Origin: Halorussus sp. MSC15.2
Lineage (GTDB): Archaea; Halobacteriota; Halobacteria; Halobacteriales; Haladaptataceae
DNA length: 64,000 nt
Assembly (NCBI RefSeq): GCF_010747475.1
Contig: NZ_VSLZ01000005.1
Coordinates: forward strand, 186,001-250,000
Reading direction: 5' to 3'
The notes under the pieces are model-generated. The model had not been told where the DNA came from, ran no database searches, and was given only the letters and a program-made list of their open reading frames with translations. Positions 35,964 through 46,903 of the stretch are shown here, piece after piece. A program made the translations under genes and the position numbers. The stretch's first letter is position 1. The number at the start of each line of letters is the position of its first letter.

Positions 35964-36773
35964 TCAGACGACATGTTCCGTGTCGTAGGACCCCAACTTC
36001 CGGACCCAGCCTTTCTCCGCAATCTCCTCGATGTCCGCGATGGCCGCCTGCGCGCGGTCCTCGTAGAGTCCGGCCTCGAAGTCGATGTGGAACACGTAAT
36101 CGCCGAGTCGCTCGCCGCTCGGCCGCGATTCGACCCGCGTCAGGTTGATGTCGCGGTCGGCGAACGGTTCGAGGAGTTCGAGCAGGAGTCCGGGGTAGTT
36201 GGCGTTCGGGTAGACCACCAGCGAGGACTTGCCGCCCGCGTCCGACCGCTCGTGGGTGGGCGCGATGACGAGGAATCGCGTGGCGTTCGAAGTCCGGTCC
36301 TGAATCCCTTCGGCGATAACTCGGAGGTCGTCGCCCTCGTGAGCGTTGGCCGGGTGACCGATACCGGCTACGTCCGGGTTCTCGCGGGCGTGTTCGACGC
36401 CGCGCGCGGTACTGGCGACGGCTTCGAGTTCGACGTCGGGGTACTCGGAGTCGAGGTAGCTACGGCACTGCGCGAGCGCCTGAGAGTGGCTGGCGACGAC
36501 CGAGAAGTCCTCGCCCCGAGCGAGCAACGCGTGCCGGATTGGAGTGACGATTTCCTGCACGGCGGCGACCTCTCGGTCGGTCAGCGCGTCGAGCGTCTCG
36601 GTGACGCTCCCCTCGATGCTGTTCTCGATGGGGACGACGCCGCGGTCGAACTCGCCGTCGGCCACCGCCTCCACGATGGCGGTGACGGACTCGCGGAAGT
36701 CCACGTCGTCGGTGACTGCGCTGGCCGCCCGATGGGAGTAGGTGCCCTCTGGACCGAGCGTGACTGCTTGCAT
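35964..36773 (-). CDS. pheA: Prephenate dehydratase
   Basis: 269 residues from the ATG at 36773 (MQAVTLGPEGTYSH). It converts prephenate to phenylpyruvate in phenylalanine synthesis. The PDT domain has VVPIENSIEGSVTETLDAL near residue 60 and the catalytic Thr-rich region RTSNATRFLVIAP near residue 167. A C-terminal ACT domain (SSLVVYPNANYPGLLLELL, then the signature ESRPSGERLGDYVFHIDFE) gives Phe feedback. The first 13 codons plus about 45 bp upstream recur, diverged, at 42201-42290 fused to the end of lpdA. Confidence 0.93.
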   Translation of the reverse strand: MQAVTLGPEGTYSHRAASAVTDDVDFRESVTAIVEAVADGEFDRGVVPIENSIEGSVTETLDALTDREVAAVQEIVTPIRHALLARGEDFSVVASHSQALAQCRSYLDSEYPDVELEAVASTARGVEHARENPDVAGIGHPANAHEGDDLRVIAEGIQDRTSNATRFLVIAPTHERSDAGGKSSLVVYPNANYPGLLLELLEPFADRDINLTRVESRPSGERLGDYVFHIDFEAGLYEDRAQAAIADIEEIAEKGWVRKLGSYDTEHVV

Positions 36774-36952
36774 GTGGTGGTTGTTTCGAGGAAACGGATA
36801 AAAGCCCGTCGGGTGTGACAGATTTCCGTGAGCGACGAGCGCCGGATGGACCCACTGTAAGACCGCGGTCGAGGACCCGAGAAGTCTGGGGTCCGATGCT
36901 GTGGCGGGCGAGACCTGTCGCATTCCGGACCCGAAACGCAGGGGTCGGCGAG

Positions 36953-37162
36953 TCACTCTCCGCCGAGTCGGAACGTCCGCCGCCGGACGTACCCGCAACT
37001 CGGACAGAGGTGGCGGTACTGGACGCGGTCGCCCGTGGTCTCGGCCACCCACCGACCGTCGGCGTCTTCGTATCGGCACTTCGGACAGACGAGGTCCGTC
37101 TCCTCGAAGCGCGACCGGAGTCGCTCGAAGGGGGAACGTCCGCCGTTTCTGGAGTGGGACAT
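36953..37162 (-). CDS. HVO_0649-type small zinc-finger protein
   Basis: 69 residues from the ATG at 37162. Two CxxC pairs, LVCPKCRYEDADGRW and RHLCPSCGYVRRRTF, form a single zinc ribbon after a basic/amphipathic helix SPFERLRSRFEETD. It matches the HVO_0649 class of very small haloarchaeal zinc-finger proteins. A role in nucleic-acid or protein binding is likely but undefined. It is the last ordinary core-type gene before the accessory island. Confidence 0.8.
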   Translation of the reverse strand: MSHSRNGGRSPFERLRSRFEETDLVCPKCRYEDADGRWVAETTGDRVQYRHLCPSCGYVRRRTFRLGGE

Positions 37163-37319
37163 GTTTTGTTGTACGGTATCAATTGGCATAGTTCCTTGGT
37201 AGGAGTGGGGCCACCGCTTTTTGACTTCGGTTATACTACCGACTCTGCGGCGAAATTCTGTCTGTCAGGCATAATTATTAGATAGTAAATAAATTGTCAG
37301 TGTGCGAGAAAAACAGCCC

Positions 37320-38243
37320 ATGGGTATAATTGAAACCACTTCGCTGACAAAACGCTATGGCGATGTAACCGCCATCGAGGACCTCCATCTTACGGTGAGG
37401 AAAGGCGAAGCGTTCGGATTCCTTGGTCCAAACGGCGCAGGCAAATCCACCACTATCAACATCCTTCTCGGATTTCTCGAGCCGTCGAGCGGGAGTGCGT
37501 GCGTGTTGGGCCACGACGTGCAGACCGAATCGAAAGCATTGCGTCGGCGTATCGGAGTAGTTCCGGAGGGCACGAGCGTCTACGAACAACTGACGGGACG
37601 AAAGCACGTCGAGTTAGCGACCCGGATGAAGAACTGCGACGACGACCCCGAGGACCGCCTGCGCTACGTCGGACTCGACCCCGAGGACTGGGACCGGAGA
37701 GCGGGGGACTACTCGAAAGGGATGCGCCAGCGACTCTCACTGGCGATGGGGCTGGTGGGAAATCCCGACCTCCTAATTCTGGACGAACCGACGTCAGGTC
37801 TCGACCCGAACGGGATGCAGGACGTGCGTGATATTATACGCGAGCAAACAGACGCTGGGCGGACAGTGTTTATGTCGAGTCATCTCCTCGCAGAAGTCGA
37901 GTCTGTCTGCAAGCGGGTCGGCATCATGAACGATGGCGAGTTGGTAACTGTAGACGAGGTAGACCGACTCCGTGAGACGGCAGTCGGCGACGCGGACGTG
38001 AAACTCAGCGTCGAAGCGGTTCCCGACGAACTCGACTTGACCGCAATAGAAGGAGTGACCGACGTGACGATAGCGGATTCGACGATTCGCGTGGCCTGCT
38101 CGAAGCGCGACACGAAAATGGCCGTCATCAGACACGTAGATCAGATAGCGACCGTAACCGACGTCGTTGCGGAGGACATCTCGCTCGAAGCCGTCTTCGA
38201 GACTTACACCGAGGACAGACGGATAGTGGAGGAATCGGCATGA
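37320..38243 (+). CDS. ABC transporter ATP-binding protein, island pair 1
   Basis: 307 residues from the ATG at 37320; a GTG at 37302 is also in frame. Walker A GPNGAGKST, signature YSKGMRQRLSLAMGL, Walker B LLILDEPTSGLDPNG and H-loop SSHLLAEVESVCKRVG mark an ABC-2/NatA-DrrA-type exporter ATPase, followed by the C-terminal domain usual in this type. It overlaps its permease by 4 nt. The preceding 60 bp are AT-rich with TATA-like TTATTAGATAG. It is closely related to the ATPase at 39293-40222. The cargo is unknown; the island's cysteine-rich peptides are candidates. Confidence 0.9.
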   Translation: MGIIETTSLTKRYGDVTAIEDLHLTVRKGEAFGFLGPNGAGKSTTINILLGFLEPSSGSACVLGHDVQTESKALRRRIGVVPEGTSVYEQLTGRKHVELATRMKNCDDDPEDRLRYVGLDPEDWDRRAGDYSKGMRQRLSLAMGLVGNPDLLILDEPTSGLDPNGMQDVRDIIREQTDAGRTVFMSSHLLAEVESVCKRVGIMNDGELVTVDEVDRLRETAVGDADVKLSVEAVPDELDLTAIEGVTDVTIADSTIRVACSKRDTKMAVIRHVDQIATVTDVVAEDISLEAVFETYTEDRRIVEESA

Positions 38244-39073
38244 GTATCAGTGACGTCGTCCGAACGGACCTGAGCGTCCTCAGGCGTTCGAAGCTCTCAT
38301 GGGCGGTCCTCACTGTTCTCCTGTTCTCTACTGCGGGGGCGTTCTATCGGTCGATAAATCGAACACCGGTCGGGACGGCCGAGAAGGGCATCACCGCAAT
38401 CGCGTACGGTGCGATGATTGTGATTCCAATCACGGCCCTCGTTGCTTCTGCGTTCGCTATCGCTGCGGAGCGCGAGAACGGAACGATACGGTTCCTCCTC
38501 GGCTTCCCGAACGAACGAGTCGAGGTCGTTCTCGGAAAAGTTCTGTCTCGGGCTATCCTCGTCAACGGCGGACTCGCGCTCGGATTTCTCGCTGTCGCAC
38601 TATTAGCGGTCGTCGGGGCTGACAGACCCCGACTTATCACGGTCGGCCAGTTCGCACTCTTGACGATGTTGTTCGCCACCTCCTACGTCGGTCTCGCGGT
38701 GGGAATCTCCGCCGGAGTAACGACCCAGATACGCGCAATCGGGGGGACTATAGTGGCGTACCTCTTTTGGAGCATCTTCTGGCTTCCCGGTTTCCCCTAC
38801 TCGGTCGCGGTGTACGTAGAGAATCTTTTAGCAAAGATAGTCGGACACGAACTCGGTCGGACGACCGTCGTACACATCGAGGTTCTCAATCCACCGACGG
38901 CCTACATGCAGACGGTACAGGTTTTGGGACCGTCGTTCGAGGAGTTCTCGAGGGGGTCATCGATGGCGAGCGCACTCGTCGAGCCGAGCGTCGCCATCGG
39001 GTCGCTCGTGGCGTGGACCGTCCTGCCGCTCGCGTTCGGCTACTGGCGGTTCAGAGCCGCCGAGATAAACTAA
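38240..39073 (+). CDS. ABC-2-type permease, island pair 1
   Basis: 277 residues with six hydrophobic segments (about 21-36, 54-75, 106-129, 138-160, 172-188 and 253-270). Signature region AIAAERENGTIRFLLGFPNERVEVVLGK is the ABC-2 amphipathic segment. It overlaps the ATPase gene by 4 nt and should form an exporter with it. The paralogue at 40219-41040 has the same layout (AKEREQGNIRFLLSFPNDRR). A copy of the lpdA 3' end begins 15 nt after its stop. Confidence 0.88.
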   Translation: MSISDVVRTDLSVLRRSKLSWAVLTVLLFSTAGAFYRSINRTPVGTAEKGITAIAYGAMIVIPITALVASAFAIAAERENGTIRFLLGFPNERVEVVLGKVLSRAILVNGGLALGFLAVALLAVVGADRPRLITVGQFALLTMLFATSYVGLAVGISAGVTTQIRAIGGTIVAYLFWSIFWLPGFPYSVAVYVENLLAKIVGHELGRTTVVHIEVLNPPTAYMQTVQVLGPSFEEFSRGSSMASALVEPSVAIGSLVAWTVLPLAFGYWRFRAAEIN

Positions 39074-39087
39074 ATAGGAATTTTCGG

Positions 39088-39123
39088 TTATCGATTCAGC
39101 GTGTGAATCGCGTGCCCGAGTGC
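39088..39123 (-). pseudogene. Fragment of the lpdA 3' end, 11 codons plus stop
   Basis: On the minus strand this reads ALGHAIHTLNR followed by TAA, exactly the C-terminus of the intact LpdA at 44654. A 26-bp core (39095-39120) is identical to 41965-41990 and 44661-44686. The flanking differences (GCA/GCG, AAT/AAC, CGA/CGC) are synonymous. Sequence beyond 39124 is unrelated to lpdA. This is the third lpdA end in the island. Confidence 0.7.
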
Positions 39124-39292: not shown

Positions 39293-40222
39293 ATGGCTGC
39301 TATCGAGACTTCGGGCTTGACGAAACACTACGGCGATATCGTCGCCGTCGATGATTTAGATTTGGTCGTTGAAGAAGGTGAAGCATTTGGATTTCTTGGT
39401 CCGAACGGGGCCGGTAAGTCAACGACTATTGATTTGCTTCTGGGTTTTCTGACACCGACTCGTGGGAACGCGGAGATACTAGGCCACGACGTAGAATCAG
39501 AATCAAAGACAGTTCGAGAGCAACTCGGTGTCCTTCCCGAAGGAGCCAGCACCTACAGTAATCTAACAGGAATAGAACACGTGGATTTAGCAATTGAGAT
39601 GAAAGGCGGTGCTGACGAGACTGAAGAGTTGTTGGAGTACGTCGGACTATCACCGGAAGATTGGGACCGTCCCGTCGGTGGCTACTCGAAAGGGATGCGC
39701 CAACGTCTCGCACTCGGGATGGCACTGGTCGGCGACCCCGAGATGCTACTTCTCGACGAACCATCCAGTGGACTGGACCCTTCCGGGATACGTGATATTC
39801 GGAATATCATCGAGGATCAGGTCGACGCGGGACGAACTGTTTTTTTCTCCAGCCACATTCTTTCGGAAGTAGAGTCTGTCTGTGAACGGGTTGGAATTAT
39901 GCGGGACGGGACGCTCGTCACTGTAGACGAGGTCGAAAAACTTCGTGCGGCAACTGTCGGCGATGCGGAAATCAAACTCCGTGTTGAGACTGTTCCTAAC
40001 CGCCTCAATCTCTCGAATATCGATAACGTGAGTGACGTGAGGACGAAGAACGATACGATTCGTGCGACCTGTTCGACGCCGTCCGCGAAAATCAGCGTGA
40101 TTAATCAGGTGGACGAAGAAGTGGAAATTACAGATGTCGTAGCTGAGGATACTTCTCTCGAAACAGTGTTCAATACGTACGTGCAGAACGGCCGGTCGGA
40201 AGCAACGGGGGACTCGCCATGA
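39293..40222 (+). CDS. ABC transporter ATP-binding protein, island pair 2
   Basis: 309 residues. Walker A GPNGAGKST, signature YSKGMRQRLALGMAL, Walker B MLLLDEPSSGLDPSG and H-loop SSHILSEVESVCERVG. It is similar throughout to the ATPase at 37320-38243, including the C-terminal domain (TVDEVEKLRAATVGDAEIKL vs TVDEVDRLRETAVGDADVKL). Codons are more AT-rich than in pair 1. A TATA-like CTTAAGATAATAAT precedes the ATG by about 20-33 nt. It overlaps its permease by 4 nt. Confidence 0.9.
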   Translation: MAAIETSGLTKHYGDIVAVDDLDLVVEEGEAFGFLGPNGAGKSTTIDLLLGFLTPTRGNAEILGHDVESESKTVREQLGVLPEGASTYSNLTGIEHVDLAIEMKGGADETEELLEYVGLSPEDWDRPVGGYSKGMRQRLALGMALVGDPEMLLLDEPSSGLDPSGIRDIRNIIEDQVDAGRTVFFSSHILSEVESVCERVGIMRDGTLVTVDEVEKLRAATVGDAEIKLRVETVPNRLNLSNIDNVSDVRTKNDTIRATCSTPSAKISVINQVDEEVEITDVVAEDTSLETVFNTYVQNGRSEATGDSP

Positions 40223-41040
40223 GCGTCAGGTTAATCCTCCGGCAAGACCTGCTGGCGCTACGTCGAACGAAACTAGTGTGGGCAGTACTACTCTTCTGTC
40301 CGTTACTCGTATTTGGAGGATTTTATGCAGTGGTTAGTAACCAAACAGGTACTAATCAAACGGTTCTTCTCGGCCTTCTCGGAATAGTTTTCCCGATACT
40401 GGTGTTCGTCCCGATGCTCTCGTTGGTGGTCTCGGCCTTCTCGATAGCGAAAGAACGGGAACAGGGAAACATCCGGTTTTTACTTTCGTTTCCCAACGAC
40501 CGACGGGAGGTCGTCCTCGGGAAATTTTGTTCTCGAAGTTTGCTGACCGCCGGCGGTTTACTGGTAGGGTTCGTTCTGGCTACGCTACTTTCCGTATTCC
40601 TTACTGGTACTCTGAATATCGGGATGTTCCTGACCTTCTCGGTGTTGACGCTTCTCCTTATGACGTCCTACGTTAGTATCGCTACCGGTATTTCCGCCAC
40701 TGTGACTACCCAGTCGCGTGCGATAGTCGCATCGATAGGAGCGTACCTCGTCTGGAACGTCTTCTGGATTCCCGCTGTCCCGAACTCGATTCCGTCACTT
40801 CTAGAGCAACATTTCGGTCTTTCCAATTCTTCACTGATACTCTTAAGGATGGGTAGCCCATCGAACGCGTACCTTCAGTCGATACAGTACGTCTCTCCGA
40901 GAACTGAGAAGTTAGTAGAAACTATGTCGGCGGGGTCTGAATTGGGCTCTCCGTTGGTCGCGGTAAGTATGCTCATCGTCTGGTCCGTGCTTCCACTCGT
41001 ACTGGGATATTGGCAGTTCCAGAAGGCAGACATATCCTAA
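40219..41040 (+). CDS. ABC-2-type permease, island pair 2
   Basis: 273 residues with six hydrophobic segments, with the conserved AKEREQGNIRFLLSFPNDRR segment after segment 2. It is the same architecture as the permease at 38240-39073. It overlaps its ATPase gene by 4 nt and is followed 178 nt later by the 16-Cys precursor on the same strand, which may be its export substrate or the target of its immunity function (inference). Confidence 0.88.
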   Translation: MSVRLILRQDLLALRRTKLVWAVLLFCPLLVFGGFYAVVSNQTGTNQTVLLGLLGIVFPILVFVPMLSLVVSAFSIAKEREQGNIRFLLSFPNDRREVVLGKFCSRSLLTAGGLLVGFVLATLLSVFLTGTLNIGMFLTFSVLTLLLMTSYVSIATGISATVTTQSRAIVASIGAYLVWNVFWIPAVPNSIPSLLEQHFGLSNSSLILLRMGSPSNAYLQSIQYVSPRTEKLVETMSAGSELGSPLVAVSMLIVWSVLPLVLGYWQFQKADIS

Positions 41041-41218: not shown

Positions 41219-41848
41219 TTGGATCGACGCCAGATGCTAAAAGAATCTGCCGCCGGCGCGCTCGTCGCGTTTGGGGGTACGACTGCCGCTAGTGCCAAAC
41301 AGGACGTTGGACTCACGAAAACCGAAGAGGAGGCCGTCATCGAGGAGTACAAAGACGCGGCAATGGTTCGAGAAGCAGTGCACGAGCAAACGGACCTACT
41401 GAAGGAACTCGAAGCAGATGGTGTTCTCGACGAACAGACCATCGACGATCTCGAGGAACTGAGCGAACCCTCCGACAACGTCGGGGAGCACGTGACCGCC
41501 TACCGACACGGCTACCGGCACACGCCACGAATCAAGATTTTCCGTCGCGTAGACGCCGGATTCCTGTCGCTCTCCGTCTTCCCGGAGGAGGACACCGCTC
41601 ACGCTACGCTGAACCCCGTCGAAAATGGTGAGCCGCTCGGTAAGGACCACCTCGTGAAATACGGAAGTATGCCGGAACCAGACCCGGACGGATGTGTCGA
41701 TCCGGGGCACTGTCAGGATTGTTCCGATTGTTCCGAAGAGTGTTGTGCGCGGGACCCTCAGGGCGACTGTACCCAGTGGTGTACTCAGTGTGACTGCGAT
41801 TGTGTCTGCTGTGACTGTGGTGTCCTCTGTAGTAGCTACTGCGCATAA
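41219..41848 (+). CDS. Tat-exported precursor with a 16-cysteine C-terminal tail
   Basis: 209 residues. TTG start at 41219 is chosen because it gives the twin-arginine signal MDRRQMLKESAAGALVAFGG; no ATG upstream keeps the frame. A signal cleavage site near AASA/KQ is likely. Residues 30-155 are acidic and helical/beta with no cysteine. From residue 159 the tail holds 16 Cys in 51 residues, including EECC, CDCDCVCCDC and CSSYC. The layout (Tat signal, propeptide, Cys-rich end) is that of halocin C8-type preproproteins, but the Cys spacing is denser, so metal binding is the alternative. It stands alone downstream of ABC pair 2. Confidence 0.75.
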   Translation: MDRRQMLKESAAGALVAFGGTTAASAKQDVGLTKTEEEAVIEEYKDAAMVREAVHEQTDLLKELEADGVLDEQTIDDLEELSEPSDNVGEHVTAYRHGYRHTPRIKIFRRVDAGFLSLSVFPEEDTAHATLNPVENGEPLGKDHLVKYGSMPEPDPDGCVDPGHCQDCSDCSEECCARDPQGDCTQWCTQCDCDCVCCDCGVLCSSYCA

Positions 41849-41957: not shown

Positions 41958-42243
41958 CTAACGGTTCAGCGTGTGAATCGCGTGCCCGAGCGCGTTTTCG
42001 GCGGCCTCCATCACGGCCTCCGAGAGCGTCGGGTGGGTGTGAATCGTCGCGGCCACATCCTCCAGCGTCGCGCCCATCTCGATAGCCAGACCGAGTTCGG
42101 CAATCAGTTCGAAGGCCTCCGGTCCCACAATCTGCGCGCCGAGCAGGAAGCCGCTGGGTTCGTCCGCGACGATGCGGACGAAGCCGTCGGCGTGGCCGGT
42201 GGAGTAGGTCCCCTCCGGACCGAGCGTGACTGCTTCTATACGT
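41958..42243 (-). pseudogene. Chimeric remnant: first 13 codons of pheA fused in frame to the last 80 codons of lpdA
   Basis: On the minus strand, 42239-42201 encodes IEAVTLGPEGTYS, the PheA N-terminus with its ATG changed to ATA. At 42200 it passes in frame to TGHADGFVRIVADEPSGF... and ends ALGHAIHTLNR with TAG at 41958-41960. The lpdA part (41961-42200) matches 44657-44896 with about 18 differences in 240 nt, all synonymous except V-to-I and S-to-F. The pheA part matches 36735-36773 at 35 of 39 positions and continues into the pheA upstream DNA to about 42288. With no start codon it is probably not translated. Confidence 0.8.
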
Positions 42244-42387
42244 TTTCTGTTTCGCGGAGGGGTGAAAAGAGCAGTGGCTGTGACAGAACTTTAGCAAGGG
42301 ATAAAGTGATTTGAACCACGCTGCCGGAATTCTCCTGTACGAATAGAAATAGTAGTATGTTCTACACGCACCCATCTAATAGTTAGG

Positions 42388-42420: not shown

Positions 42421-43266
42421 ATGGAAGACGAAAATCAGTCAAAGAGAGAAGAGTCAAAGAACAAAGCGTCAATCACCCGACGAGGAGTCCTTGGGGTATT
42501 AGGTGCAACCGCTGGTGCAACCGTTAGCTCAGGATTTACTAAACCGGTTTCTGCAGACTCTGTAGATATAACCGATCTCCGGGGTTCAGTAAGAACGCTG
42601 TTTGAAGAAGTGGGAGAACCAGCAATCGTTAACCAAAATGTGAATGTTTATCATGGTGATTTTACCCTGAAGGTTATTCGATTCGAAACCAAAGTCGGTG
42701 CCATCACTCACCGAGAGGTTCTTAATTCGAAAGTTGAAAAGTTCGATCGGGGGGACACGTCCACAGGATTCGAACTAAAGGACCTTACTGAAGAGATTCA
42801 GCGAAAGCTCCCCACTCGGTTCAATAGCGTCCCCATAGGAGTTGAACTCCACATGAAGGTGGAAAATAATGGAATGAGTCTCAGCACTACCGTAACTGAG
42901 AAAGAACAGGAACAACTGTCAAATTTTGTCGATACTGGTGAATTTATTGCACGACACACTGATGGCTCCTACTTCATCAGGACTGCGGACGGCAATGTGT
43001 TCAAAGTTTCTAGTGAGACAGATCGGCCAAACATAAGACAACCTTCGGTCGAAGAAGTCGCAAGCGAGCAAATTAACGCAGATGCATGCTTCGATTGTGG
43101 TACTAATGCTCCCGAATGTGCTAGTAATTGTTTCAATGCTTGTGCCTTTGTCATTGGAAATGGCGATCCCCTGCATTGCGGTGAATGTATTGCCCAACAC
43201 TGCGTGGGTTTAGACGTAAAAGCCTGCGCAAAATGCATCGCTAGCCTGCCAGAATCTATTCGATAA
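42421..43266 (+). CDS. Halocin C8-like Tat-exported preproprotein
   Basis: 281 residues. The Tat signal is SITRRGVLGVLGATAGATVS (17-36). Residues 47-220 form a soluble pro-domain (FEEVGEPAIVNQNVNVYHGD, VELHMKVENNGMSLSTTVTE) without Cys. The last 59 residues carry ten cysteines at 223, 226, 233, 237, 241, 253, 256, 261, 269 and 272. Halocin C8, a haloarchaeal antimicrobial peptide with ten cysteines, is cut from the C-terminus of a similar preproprotein whose N-terminal part gives immunity (known for that system). Antimicrobial function here is inferred. Codons are notably AT-rich, unlike core genes. Its 3' end overlaps the convergent LolA-like gene by 11 nt. Confidence 0.75.
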   Translation: MEDENQSKREESKNKASITRRGVLGVLGATAGATVSSGFTKPVSADSVDITDLRGSVRTLFEEVGEPAIVNQNVNVYHGDFTLKVIRFETKVGAITHREVLNSKVEKFDRGDTSTGFELKDLTEEIQRKLPTRFNSVPIGVELHMKVENNGMSLSTTVTEKEQEQLSNFVDTGEFIARHTDGSYFIRTADGNVFKVSSETDRPNIRQPSVEEVASEQINADACFDCGTNAPECASNCFNACAFVIGNGDPLHCGECIAQHCVGLDVKACAKCIASLPESIR

Positions 43267-44002
43267 ACGGTTTTCTACGTACCTCTTTTGCGTTTTCGGG
43301 AGGAGTAAACTTGAAGAGAGAGCAATCAATCTCGATGTTAAATTCAACCTCCTCAAACGTTTTCATGAGGAAGTACACCCCGTCCGGAACATCCCCGAGT
43401 GAATCTGTCTGCAACAGTGGCATCTCTTGGATGTTGGCCCGTGCCTCCTCCTTGATGGGGAACCAGTATTCGTCGTCTATCCACAGAGTTATGTACTCGT
43501 ATCCTCGGTAGAGGGAATCCGCGTCCGCTGTCGGTCGAAACGACAGGACGTGTGTCTCTCGACCTGCGACGGTCTCCCTCCCATCGTACGTCACGTCGAA
43601 GTTCGATTTGGGAGAGGACCCAATTAACGTCGCGTCCGTGTTGGGATTAGGTCGACCCTCGGCCGGGTCGAAATCGAGACTGTGATACTTTTTCGCTTCA
43701 CGGTCATACAGTATCACTCCATCTCGATTCTGTATCATGAGATCTACGCCCTCGAATTCAGGCGTCGGGTCGTGCGTGACGCCAAGGTCGAAATCGAACT
43801 CGTCGACGGTTTCCACGGACAGTTGTTCGTTGCGAGTTCTGTTCGGAAGATCCTCCCACAGTTCAAGTCGGACCGTTCTCAGGCCGCCACCGTATTTTTC
43901 GGTTTTTCGTTTCGTCCCGTGAATGGTGTCCGGCAAATTGTCCGTGGCCTGGAGTTCGTCGAGGATTTCCTCGACTGAAGGCGTATCCTCATTCGTGGTC
44001 AT
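43256..44002 (-). CDS. LolA/LppX-like protein without signal peptide
   Basis: 248 residues from the ATG at 44002; a GTG at 44011 is the alternative. It has the beta-rich LolA-like pattern: RTVRLELWEDLPNRTRNEQL, DLMIQNRDGVILYDREAKKY, ETVAGRETHVLSFRP, YITLWIDDEYWFPIKEEA and a final EIDCSLFKFTPPENAKEVRR. Most haloarchaeal members are exported lipoproteins; this one starts with acidic TTNEDTPSVEEILDELQATD and has no signal, so it should stay in the cytosol. It is convergent with the halocin-like gene and overlaps it, suggesting linked function (immunity or maturation), which is inference. TATA-like TTTATATA at 44039-44046 on the minus strand. Confidence 0.7.
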   Translation of the reverse strand: MTTNEDTPSVEEILDELQATDNLPDTIHGTKRKTEKYGGGLRTVRLELWEDLPNRTRNEQLSVETVDEFDFDLGVTHDPTPEFEGVDLMIQNRDGVILYDREAKKYHSLDFDPAEGRPNPNTDATLIGSSPKSNFDVTYDGRETVAGRETHVLSFRPTADADSLYRGYEYITLWIDDEYWFPIKEEARANIQEMPLLQTDSLGDVPDGVYFLMKTFEEVEFNIEIDCSLFKFTPPENAKEVRRKPFIE

Positions 44003-44085
44003 GGCTTCCACATCGTCCTACAGTTAAGTAGATACACATATATAAAACGCGGTCGAGATGTGTCGGGGCTACCGCTATCGGTTCA

Positions 44086-44653: not shown

Positions 44654-46078
44654 TCAGCGGTTCAGCGTGTGAATCGCGTGCCCGAGCGCGTTCTCGGCGG
44701 CCTCCATCACGGCCTCCGAGAGCGTCGGGTGGGTGTGAATCGTCGCCGCGACGTCCTCCAGCGTCGCGCCCATCTCAATGGCGAGTCCGAGTTCCGCGAC
44801 GAGTTCGGAGGCCTCCGGTCCCACAATCTGCGCGCCGAGCAGGAAACCACTGGGTTCGTCCGCGACGATGCGGACGAAGCCGTCGGCGTGGCCCGTCGTG
44901 AGCGCGCGGCCCGACGCGTTGAACGGGAACTTGCCGACGGTGGGTTCGAAGCCCTCCTCCTCGGCCTCCGCTTCGGTCATGCCGACCGTGCCGATTTCGG
45001 GGTCGGTGAACACCGCGGCGGGGACCGCCTGATAGTCCAGCGCCGAGGGTTCGCCCGCGACGACCTCCGCGGCGACCTGCCCCTCCTTGCTGGCCACGTG
45101 CGCGAGCATCGGCTCGCCGGACACGTCACCGATGGCGTGGATGTGCTCGACGTTCGTCCGCGCACGGTCGTCGGTCGGGATGAAACCGTTCTCGTCGGTC
45201 TCGACGCCCGCGTTGTCGAGTTCGAGCGTGTCGGTGACGGGTTCGCGGCCGACCGCGACCAGCACCTTCTCCGCGCCGAACTCCGAGACCTCGCCGTCCT
45301 CGTCCTCGGTCCGGACGGTGATGCCGTCGCCCGACTCCTCCCACCCGCTGGCGGCCTCGCCGAAGTGGAAGTCGATGCCCAGTTCCTCCGCCTTCTTCTT
45401 GACGGGGCGCGCGAGGTCGTCCTCGTAGCCCGGAAGGACCGAGTCGAGCATCTCGACTATCGTCACGTCGGTACCCAACTTGGCGAAGACGCCCGCGAGT
45501 TCCATGCCGATGTAGCCCGCGCCGACGATGACGAGGCTCTCGGGCACCTCCTCCAGTGCGAGCGCCTGCCGGGAGTCGAGTACGGGGTCGTCGCCGAAGT
45601 CGAAGCCGGGCACTTCGATGGGGCGACTTCCAGTCGAAACGATGGCGTGTTCGAACTTGACCGTCTCGGAACCCTGCCCGCCGCCGCTGTGGACGACGCG
45701 GGCCTTGTTCTCGTCGGCGAACTCCGCGCGGCCCTCCATCAGTTCGACGCCGTTGGCCTTGGCGAGTTTCTCGACGCCGCCCGTGAGTTGGTCCACGACG
45801 CCGTCCTTCCAGCCGACCATCTCGCTCATCTCCACCTCGGGGTCGGCGTAGATGCCCATTTCCTCGGCGTGGCCTGCCTCGTGGGCGAGGTCCGACGCCG
45901 TAATCATCGCCTTCGAGGGGATGCAACCGTAGTTGAGGCAGGTCCCGCCGTAGGCGTCCTTCTCCACGAGGGTCACGTCGAGGTCCAACTGGCCCGCGCG
46001 AATCGCGGCGACGTAGCCGCCCGGTCCCGCGCCGATTACCAACACGTCCGTTCCCGTCGAGATGTCTCCGACGACCAT
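44654..46078 (-). CDS. lpdA: Dihydrolipoamide dehydrogenase (E3)
   Basis: 474 residues from the ATG at 46078 (MVVGDISTGTDVLVIGAGPG). FAD enzyme that reoxidises dihydrolipoyl groups of E2 with NAD+. The redox disulfide is GGTCLNYGCIPSK, the FAD site GAGPGGYVAA, the NAD site IVGAGYIGMELAGVFAKLG, FAD-ribityl HAIGDVSGEPMLAH, and the C-terminal dimer interface HTHPTLSEAVMEAA with the active-site His. Its last codons recur at 39088 and 41958. It is in the same direction as the E1/E2 genes but 3.4 kb downstream of E2. Confidence 0.96.
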   Translation of the reverse strand: MVVGDISTGTDVLVIGAGPGGYVAAIRAGQLDLDVTLVEKDAYGGTCLNYGCIPSKAMITASDLAHEAGHAEEMGIYADPEVEMSEMVGWKDGVVDQLTGGVEKLAKANGVELMEGRAEFADENKARVVHSGGGQGSETVKFEHAIVSTGSRPIEVPGFDFGDDPVLDSRQALALEEVPESLVIVGAGYIGMELAGVFAKLGTDVTIVEMLDSVLPGYEDDLARPVKKKAEELGIDFHFGEAASGWEESGDGITVRTEDEDGEVSEFGAEKVLVAVGREPVTDTLELDNAGVETDENGFIPTDDRARTNVEHIHAIGDVSGEPMLAHVASKEGQVAAEVVAGEPSALDYQAVPAAVFTDPEIGTVGMTEAEAEEEGFEPTVGKFPFNASGRALTTGHADGFVRIVADEPSGFLLGAQIVGPEASELVAELGLAIEMGATLEDVAATIHTHPTLSEAVMEAAENALGHAIHTLNR

Positions 46079-46148: not shown

Positions 46149-46676
46149 TCACGCGGGGTCGTCGGGGAGGGCGTCGGCGACGCTTTCGACCGGCGCGTAG
46201 TAGCCGCGCTGGTCGCGCCAGACGTCGAGCCACTCGTCCGCGGTTTCGACGGACAGTTCGTTTCTGACGACACCGTTAACGAGCAAACCGATAGAGCCCG
46301 TTTTCGAGACGCCGAGTTCGTCTGCGAGCCGGCGAGCATCCATGTCGTCGGAGACGAACGTCCCGTCTACGAGTTGAGCCGTCACGAGGACTTCAGTCTC
46401 TCCTCGGTCAAGTCGCTGAAGCTCTTCGGAGAACTCGTGGTGGTCGAGAATACCACGTCCAGGATGAAGGAGGTCTATTTTGTCGCATTGGACGGCAGCG
46501 AGGGCTGAACCGAGAAATGGATAACCCTCGTCGACGCCGCGCTGGAGTTCCTGCTCAACCGCCGCTGCCGTTGCTAATCCGGAGAACGTGTCGGTGAGCC
46601 ATGATATAGCGTCGGAACTAGCGAAGTTACTGAGCACCGTCGCGTCGAGGACGAGCGGCTTCCGCTTCTCTCTCAT
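46149..46676 (-). CDS. PIN-domain toxin-like protein partnered with UPF0175
   Basis: 175 residues. LVLDATVLSNFASSDAISWL supplies the first acidic residue of a PIN nuclease (D11), ELQRGVDEGYP the Glu, and LDRGETEVLVTA plus FVSDDMDARRLADELGV the remaining acidic residues, with GSIGLLVNGV after them. This is the DUF3368-like PIN form that pairs with UPF0175 proteins. The expected role is a ribonuclease toxin. It overlaps the upstream antitoxin gene by 4 nt. Confidence 0.8.
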   Translation of the reverse strand: MREKRKPLVLDATVLSNFASSDAISWLTDTFSGLATAAAVEQELQRGVDEGYPFLGSALAAVQCDKIDLLHPGRGILDHHEFSEELQRLDRGETEVLVTAQLVDGTFVSDDMDARRLADELGVSKTGSIGLLVNGVVRNELSVETADEWLDVWRDQRGYYAPVESVADALPDDPA

Positions 46677-46903
46677 TCGAGGTCCAAGGCGACGTCAACT
46701 TCGTCTTCCAACTCCTCGTCGCTCTGCGGACCGAGGCGCAGTTCGACGCCCGCATCCTCCAGTATCTCCTGCATCTCCCACCGGGACACGTTGGCGCGTT
46801 CGGCGGCCCTGCCGAGGCTGATTTCACCGAGCGCGTACAGACCGATGGTCTCGGCGAGTTCGCTGGCGTCCTCGGCTTGGGCGCGTCGTCGGTCGGAAGC
46901 CAT
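46673..46903 (-). CDS. UPF0175-family antitoxin
   Basis: 76 residues. AETIGLYALGEISLGRAAER and ANVSRWEMQEILEDAGVELR are the UPF0175 helix-turn-helix-like motifs (growth phase/antitoxin family), and the acidic tail EELEDEVDVALDLE probably contacts the toxin. First gene of the pair, overlapping the PIN gene by 4 nt. It likely represses its own promoter, as typical for such antitoxins (family knowledge). Confidence 0.8.
   Translation of the reverse strand: MASDRRRAQAEDASELAETIGLYALGEISLGRAAERANVSRWEMQEILEDAGVELRLGPQSDEELEDEVDVALDLE

Follow-up and report, generated by a model that had tools for sequence, protein, structure and literature searches.

Duplicated lpdA gene ends in a Halorussus genomic island are probably scars of recombination

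Downstream of lpdA, the dihydrolipoyl dehydrogenase gene of Halorussus sp. MSC15.2, the 3′ end of the gene recurs twice within an island of unrelated genes. The question raised by this arrangement is whether the gene end serves as the attachment site of an integrating element, as had been proposed from the letters of the DNA (the sequence-only reading), or whether the repeats arose in another way. The locus was analysed in a window of 64,000 nt, which is the whole stretch of DNA considered here.

The repeat itself was borne out. The 26-mer described earlier as identical at three places and in the same orientation matches exactly at 39095-39120, 41965-41990 and 44661-44686, on one strand, and these three sites, all within the window, are the only exact ones in the 4.4-Mb genome. 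Allowing up to three mismatches added no match, whether within the window (shuffle mean 0.00) or across the entire 4.4-Mb genome (control pattern 0). A chance origin of the repeat is excluded. The start-to-start spacings of the copies are 2870 and 2696, in agreement with the blocks of about 2.9 and 2.7 kb with different cargo that had been reported, and blocks A and B do carry unrelated cargo.

The features of the locus are listed in Table 1. On the minus strand, lpdA is followed by block A (the genes for a LolA-like protein and Cys-rich protein 1), by a pheA start joined to a 242-bp lpdA end (copy 2), by block B (Cys-rich protein 2, a permease and an ATPase), by a 36-bp lpdA end (copy 3), by block C (a permease and an ATPase), and finally by a Zn-ribbon-like ORF and pheA. 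The inner boundary of the island is at 37203, from which the ordinary resident arrangement is found; in G004, which is the sister of the window genome (G000) in a tree of lpdA nt 1-1041, the resident part starts ~80 bp past lpdA. Because copy 2 is joined to a pheA start, and pheA follows lpdA in relatives, the island is read as a stack of head-to-tail lpdA-pheA intervals.

Table 1. Features of the lpdA-pheA region of the window, in order of position
Feature	Coordinates	Strand	Remarks
Intact pheA (prephenate dehydratase), resident downstream flank	35964..36773	-	Pfam PDT + ACT
Resident Zn-ribbon-like ORF (~36954-37190) and pheA upstream region	36799..37203	-	87% to sister G004
ABC ATPase, block C (DrrA-like)	37320..38243	+	Pfam ABC_tran; 61% to block B ATPase
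ABC-2 permease, block C	38240..39073	+	Pfam ABC2_membrane_2
lpdA 3′ remnant, copy 3: last 11 codons and TAA	39088..39123	-	36 bp, exact 26-mer
ABC ATPase, block B (DrrA-like)	39293..40222	+	Pfam ABC_tran; best NCBIfam drrA, below cut-off
ABC-2 permease, block B	40219..41040	+	Pfam ABC2_membrane_2
Secreted-type Cys-rich-tail protein 2, 209 aa, block B	41219..41848	+	53-54% homologues in G019
lpdA 3′ remnant, copy 2: last 80 codons and TAG	41958..42200	-	93% to native
pheA 5′ remnant: 13 codons (42201-42239) and upstream region	42201..42287	-	38/39 nt with G003 allele
Secreted-type Cys-rich-tail protein 1, 281 aa, block A	42421..43266	+	43% homologue, G011 same interval
LolA-like protein gene, block A	43256..44011	-	weak Pfam LolA_like, E 3.9e-5, under curated cut-off
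Intact lpdA (dihydrolipoyl dehydrogenase)	44654..46078	-	Pfam Pyr_redox_2 / Pyr_redox_dim

The repeats are not constant in length (242 bp for copy 2 versus 36 bp for copy 3), and the three ends differ in their stop codons, which are TGA in native lpdA, TAG in copy 2 and TAA in copy 3; similarity stops at the stop codon. Copy 2 had been taken for 26 bp. It extends over 239-242 bp, aligns with native lpdA over 239 bp ungapped (93%), and has a 5′ fragment of pheA attached, both of which had been missed. At 42200/42201 the pheA sequence directly precedes copy 2 on the minus strand, with no gap; the piece comprises 39 coding nt, which share the reading frame of the lpdA codons in copy 2, and ~48 bp of upstream region or promoter. 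The remnant is dead, since its start codon has changed from ATG to ATA. The fused pheA start agrees at 38 of 39 nt with the allele of G003, a member of Halorussus, versus 35 of 39 with the host's own pheA; judged from these matches, the remnant is allelic and not self-derived. The junction reads TACTCC/ACCGGCC (the slash marks the join), and ~ACCGG occurs both in the pheA alleles and in lpdA, shifted by one base in the available alleles.

Copy 2 contains four changes that are absent from all relatives, one of which is at codon positions 1-2. If copy 2 had been dead since the split of G000 and G004, roughly eight changes would be expected at these positions, a rough estimate that assumes ~5% third-position change per lineage since that split. 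The single unique change at positions 1-2 argues that copy 2 belonged to a functional gene until recently. The grouping of copy 2 with G004 in the tree is weak (0.69 / 56).

It is apparent that native lpdA is itself a mosaic. Over the last 240 nt, pairwise differences number 17 between copy 2 and native lpdA, 15 between copy 2 and G004, and 23 between native lpdA and G004. The informative sites are clustered. At sites up to index 89, native lpdA and copy 2 are united at nine, against three; from index 95, copy 2 sides with G004 at nine sites and native lpdA with copy 2 at one. The breakpoint lies between 44807 and 44801 (permutation p 0.014). Over index 93-120 (28 bp), copy 2 is identical to G004 at 28/28 positions, and native lpdA differs at eight and is nearest to G010 and G001. 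The final ~150 bp of native lpdA (44654 to ~44804) thus look imported, and not like the sister-species allele. The sequence after the native stop resembles that of G005 (88-93% over ~1.4 kb). On the simplest reading of these alleles, copy 2 would be the resident end, now displaced, and the last ~150 bp of native lpdA would have arrived with block A.

Near nt 1062, the share of third positions at which native lpdA diverges from that of G004 steps up from 10% to 31%, more sharply than in any other of 120 genus pairs. Faster divergence of the lpdA 3′ end is seen genus-wide, with a median ratio of ~1.36 over nt 1041-1422. The lpdA of G004 itself looks recombinant near its 3′ end (nt 1041-1182 and ~1226-1271), and part of the divergence step between the two genomes therefore belongs to G004.

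Copy 3 reads GCA CTC GGG CAC GCG ATT CAC ACG CTG AAT CGA TAA on the minus strand, which specifies ALGHAIHTLNR and a stop; all of its coding differences from native lpdA are synonymous, and its earlier description as the last 11 LpdA residues, synonymously altered and with their own stop, was accurate. A pheA remnant adjoining copy 3 was looked for, and none was seen. Among relatives, G001, G023 and G024 tie at two differences each from the 36 bp; the CGA-TAA ending is frequent in genomes of the sister genus, and none of the sampled members of the host genus has it. The tie and the distribution of this ending are too little to decide on a donor, and copy 3 is too short for an origin to be assigned. 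An earlier addition like that behind copy 2 probably left copy 3 as its scar, and may have proceeded in the same way.

In the 20 relatives examined, lpdA and pheA are neighbours, 0.12-2.4 kb apart, in 16; G016 and three sister-genus genomes depart from this pattern. The neighbourhood is found in nearly all relatives of the same genus, and the genes of the interval differ in most of them. The lpdA-pheA interval is a hot spot of variable cargo in Halorussus, and in G005, G011 and G001 it holds block A cargo. Conservation of the region downstream of lpdA, free of insertions, had been named as an outcome that would speak against an attachment site. The interval is highly variable, yet its variation in relatives leaves no lpdA repeat. 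The interval of G008 and G006 (L037, L038) contains, as judged by eye, a PIN-domain-like toxin gene with a small gene upstream of it; a PIN-like gene pair is also situated upstream of lpdA in the window, at 46149-46900.

With regard to the cargo, the LolA-like gene is present in the same interval of G005 (91%), G001 and G011. In G001 (L041) two LolA-like genes lie in tandem, which suggests repeated gain or duplication there. A C-terminal remnant of Cys-rich protein 1 was found in the lpdA-pheA interval of G005, and the LolA-like/Cys-rich 1 pair occurs at another locus of that genome too. G019, which belongs to a sister genus, has two tandem homologues of Cys-rich protein 2 directly downstream of lpdA (L157, 3272-4741), with no lpdA repeat at that locus; the association of lpdA with Cys-rich cargo extends across genera. 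Homologues of Cys-rich protein 2 adjoin a DrrA-like ABC ATPase twice in G250, and a weak homologue adjoins a DrrA-like ATPase at another site in the window genome. The permeases of blocks B and C are mutual best hits (42-44%). Neither Cys-rich protein has a family in Pfam or NCBIfam, and BLAST revealed no similarity between the two. Membership of the halocins or another named family was considered, and no model in Pfam or NCBIfam matched. The layout of these proteins (a twin-arginine-like signal, a domain and a Cys-rich tail, with an exporter) suggests a putative secreted peptide, and both are candidates for new haloarchaeal secreted peptide families.

The proposal that the lpdA end acts as an attachment site has a known counterpart. 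In the case of the e14 prophage in icd, an incoming, mostly synonymous variant replaces the 3′ end of the host gene, and the old end is displaced distally. Applied to lpdA, elements with an attP that restores the gene would have inserted serially at its 3′ end and later lost their integrases. The location of the repeats at the exact gene end, their synonymous changes and own stops, and the imported-like end of native lpdA all favour such integration, and the replacement of the lpdA 3′ end by a mostly synonymous incoming variant, with distal displacement of the old end, does resemble e14/icd. To that extent the proposed restoration of the gene holds; the integrating element is not supported. 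In a survey of 102 haloarchaeal lpdA loci, including that of the window (95 with at least 2 kb downstream), a duplicated terminus was found in 0/101 of the others; the other matches were few, 16-27 bp in length, short of the gene end and mostly upstream. A search of the genome with PF00589 (Phage_integrase) gave eight matches, none of them on the 255-kb contig C5 that carries the locus, and the earlier statement that no integrase gene is present is upheld for tyrosine integrases. The ORFs of the island are of ABC, Cys-rich and LolA-like types, a degenerate lpdA terminus was found in none of the viral contigs, and the region had no match in phage records. In the absence of lpdA-end duplication elsewhere, of a tyrosine integrase on the contig, and of viral or phage matches, the variable interval is not the product of a recurrent attachment site. 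The repeat lengths of 242 and 36 bp, and the pheA piece on the longer copy, which an att core would not carry, also disfavour an att core. Unlike e14/icd, the lpdA island lacks a tyrosine integrase, phage genes, a constant core and recurrence elsewhere. Integration of this type is strongly disfavoured and must be considered very improbable, and the lpdA-end repeats are probably scars of recombination rather than the landing sites of a virus-like integrating element.

The explanation that most probably applies is that imported DNA was added by homologous recombination within lpdA together with one microhomology join, and that the old gene end was thereby displaced. Intervals from other haloarchaea would have been added side by side, without replacing each other. 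As we infer the order of events, the latest import would have consisted of an lpdA 3′ end, the block A cargo and a pheA start. A homologous crossover may have occurred inside the resident lpdA near nt 1272-1278; on the other side, pheA would have been joined through microhomology (~ACCGG) into the resident lpdA, 80 codons before its stop. Such an event would leave lpdA intact, its end imported, and beyond it new cargo and a broken pheA start; the resident end would now lie 2.7 kb away as copy 2. A site-specific recombinase would be unnecessary. One crossover and one microhomology join would suffice for block A. Mating, transformation or a circle would each be compatible as the route of import; no donor genome was found. 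The circle constitutes a variant of this explanation and does not exclude it: a molecule of lpdA 3′ end, block A and pheA 5′ end, closed by microhomology, would have been inserted in the manner of Campbell by one lpdA crossover. A single homologous crossover would give the observed order, and the breakpoint inside the repeated segment fits. Against it, no plasmid or circular relative with block A was found, the plasmid matches listed showing only the ABC ATPase. This variant is regarded as possible, though less than even in probability. A plasmid origin was considered and rejected; among the plasmid matches listed, only the ABC ATPase appeared (~66-70%).

The pheA 5′-lpdA 3′ junction is also what a tandem duplication of the lpdA-pheA interval in place would give, with the cargo diverging or being replaced later, and the two ABC pairs are close relatives (61% for the ATPases, 42-44% for the permeases, which are mutual best hits). 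However, the cargo of block A is unrelated to that of block B, the allele of the pheA piece differs from the host's own pheA, copy 2 has the sister allele where native lpdA has another, and the divergence between blocks B and C is too great for an event as young as copy 2. Duplication in place is thus unlikely, and recent self-duplication is ruled out by the alleles of the pheA piece and copy 2. A broader suggestion, in which haloarchaea preferentially use the lpdA end as a landing pad without an integrase and accrete there, through recombination, cassettes of secreted Cys-rich proteins and ABC transporters, the 242-bp direct repeats allowing block A to be lost reversibly as a circle, is offered as speculation and is quite unlikely as a whole.

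Addition by recombination in lpdA may be compared with two known processes. Homology-facilitated illegitimate recombination has been described in natural transformation of bacteria. The lpdA island resembles it in having one homologous anchor (lpdA, with its internal mosaic breakpoint, p 0.014) and what may be a join at short microhomology (~ACCGG, with the shift of one base), and differs from it in that the host is an archaeon and a short segment of resident lpdA may have been duplicated, not deleted. Flexible genomic islands of the replacement kind are exchanged by homologous recombination, with substitution peaks at their borders, in organisms that include Haloquadratum walsbyi (Lopez-Perez et al. 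2014, PMC4033161). Like those islands (PMC4033161), the lpdA island has conserved flanks with different, lineage-specific cargo, a mostly synonymous rise in divergence at its boundary, to which G004 contributes part, and no dedicated recombinase. Unlike them (PMC4033161), its intervals were apparently added in tandem, with fossil gene ends left behind and none replaced, and its cargo consists of secreted-type Cys-rich proteins and ABC transporters.

These results serve as a warning that gene-end repeats at the borders of an island are not, on their own, evidence for an attachment site. They also draw attention to cargo families, namely secreted-type Cys-rich proteins accompanied by ABC or LolA-like partners, that are outside the families of Pfam and NCBIfam. 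The mechanism proposed here would be an ordinary one, but its record is unusually readable, since the displaced end, the imported end and the broken neighbouring gene are all legible. The lpdA-pheA interval would thus provide a fossil record of an archaeal chromosomal hot spot that gathers cargo without a mobile-element enzyme.
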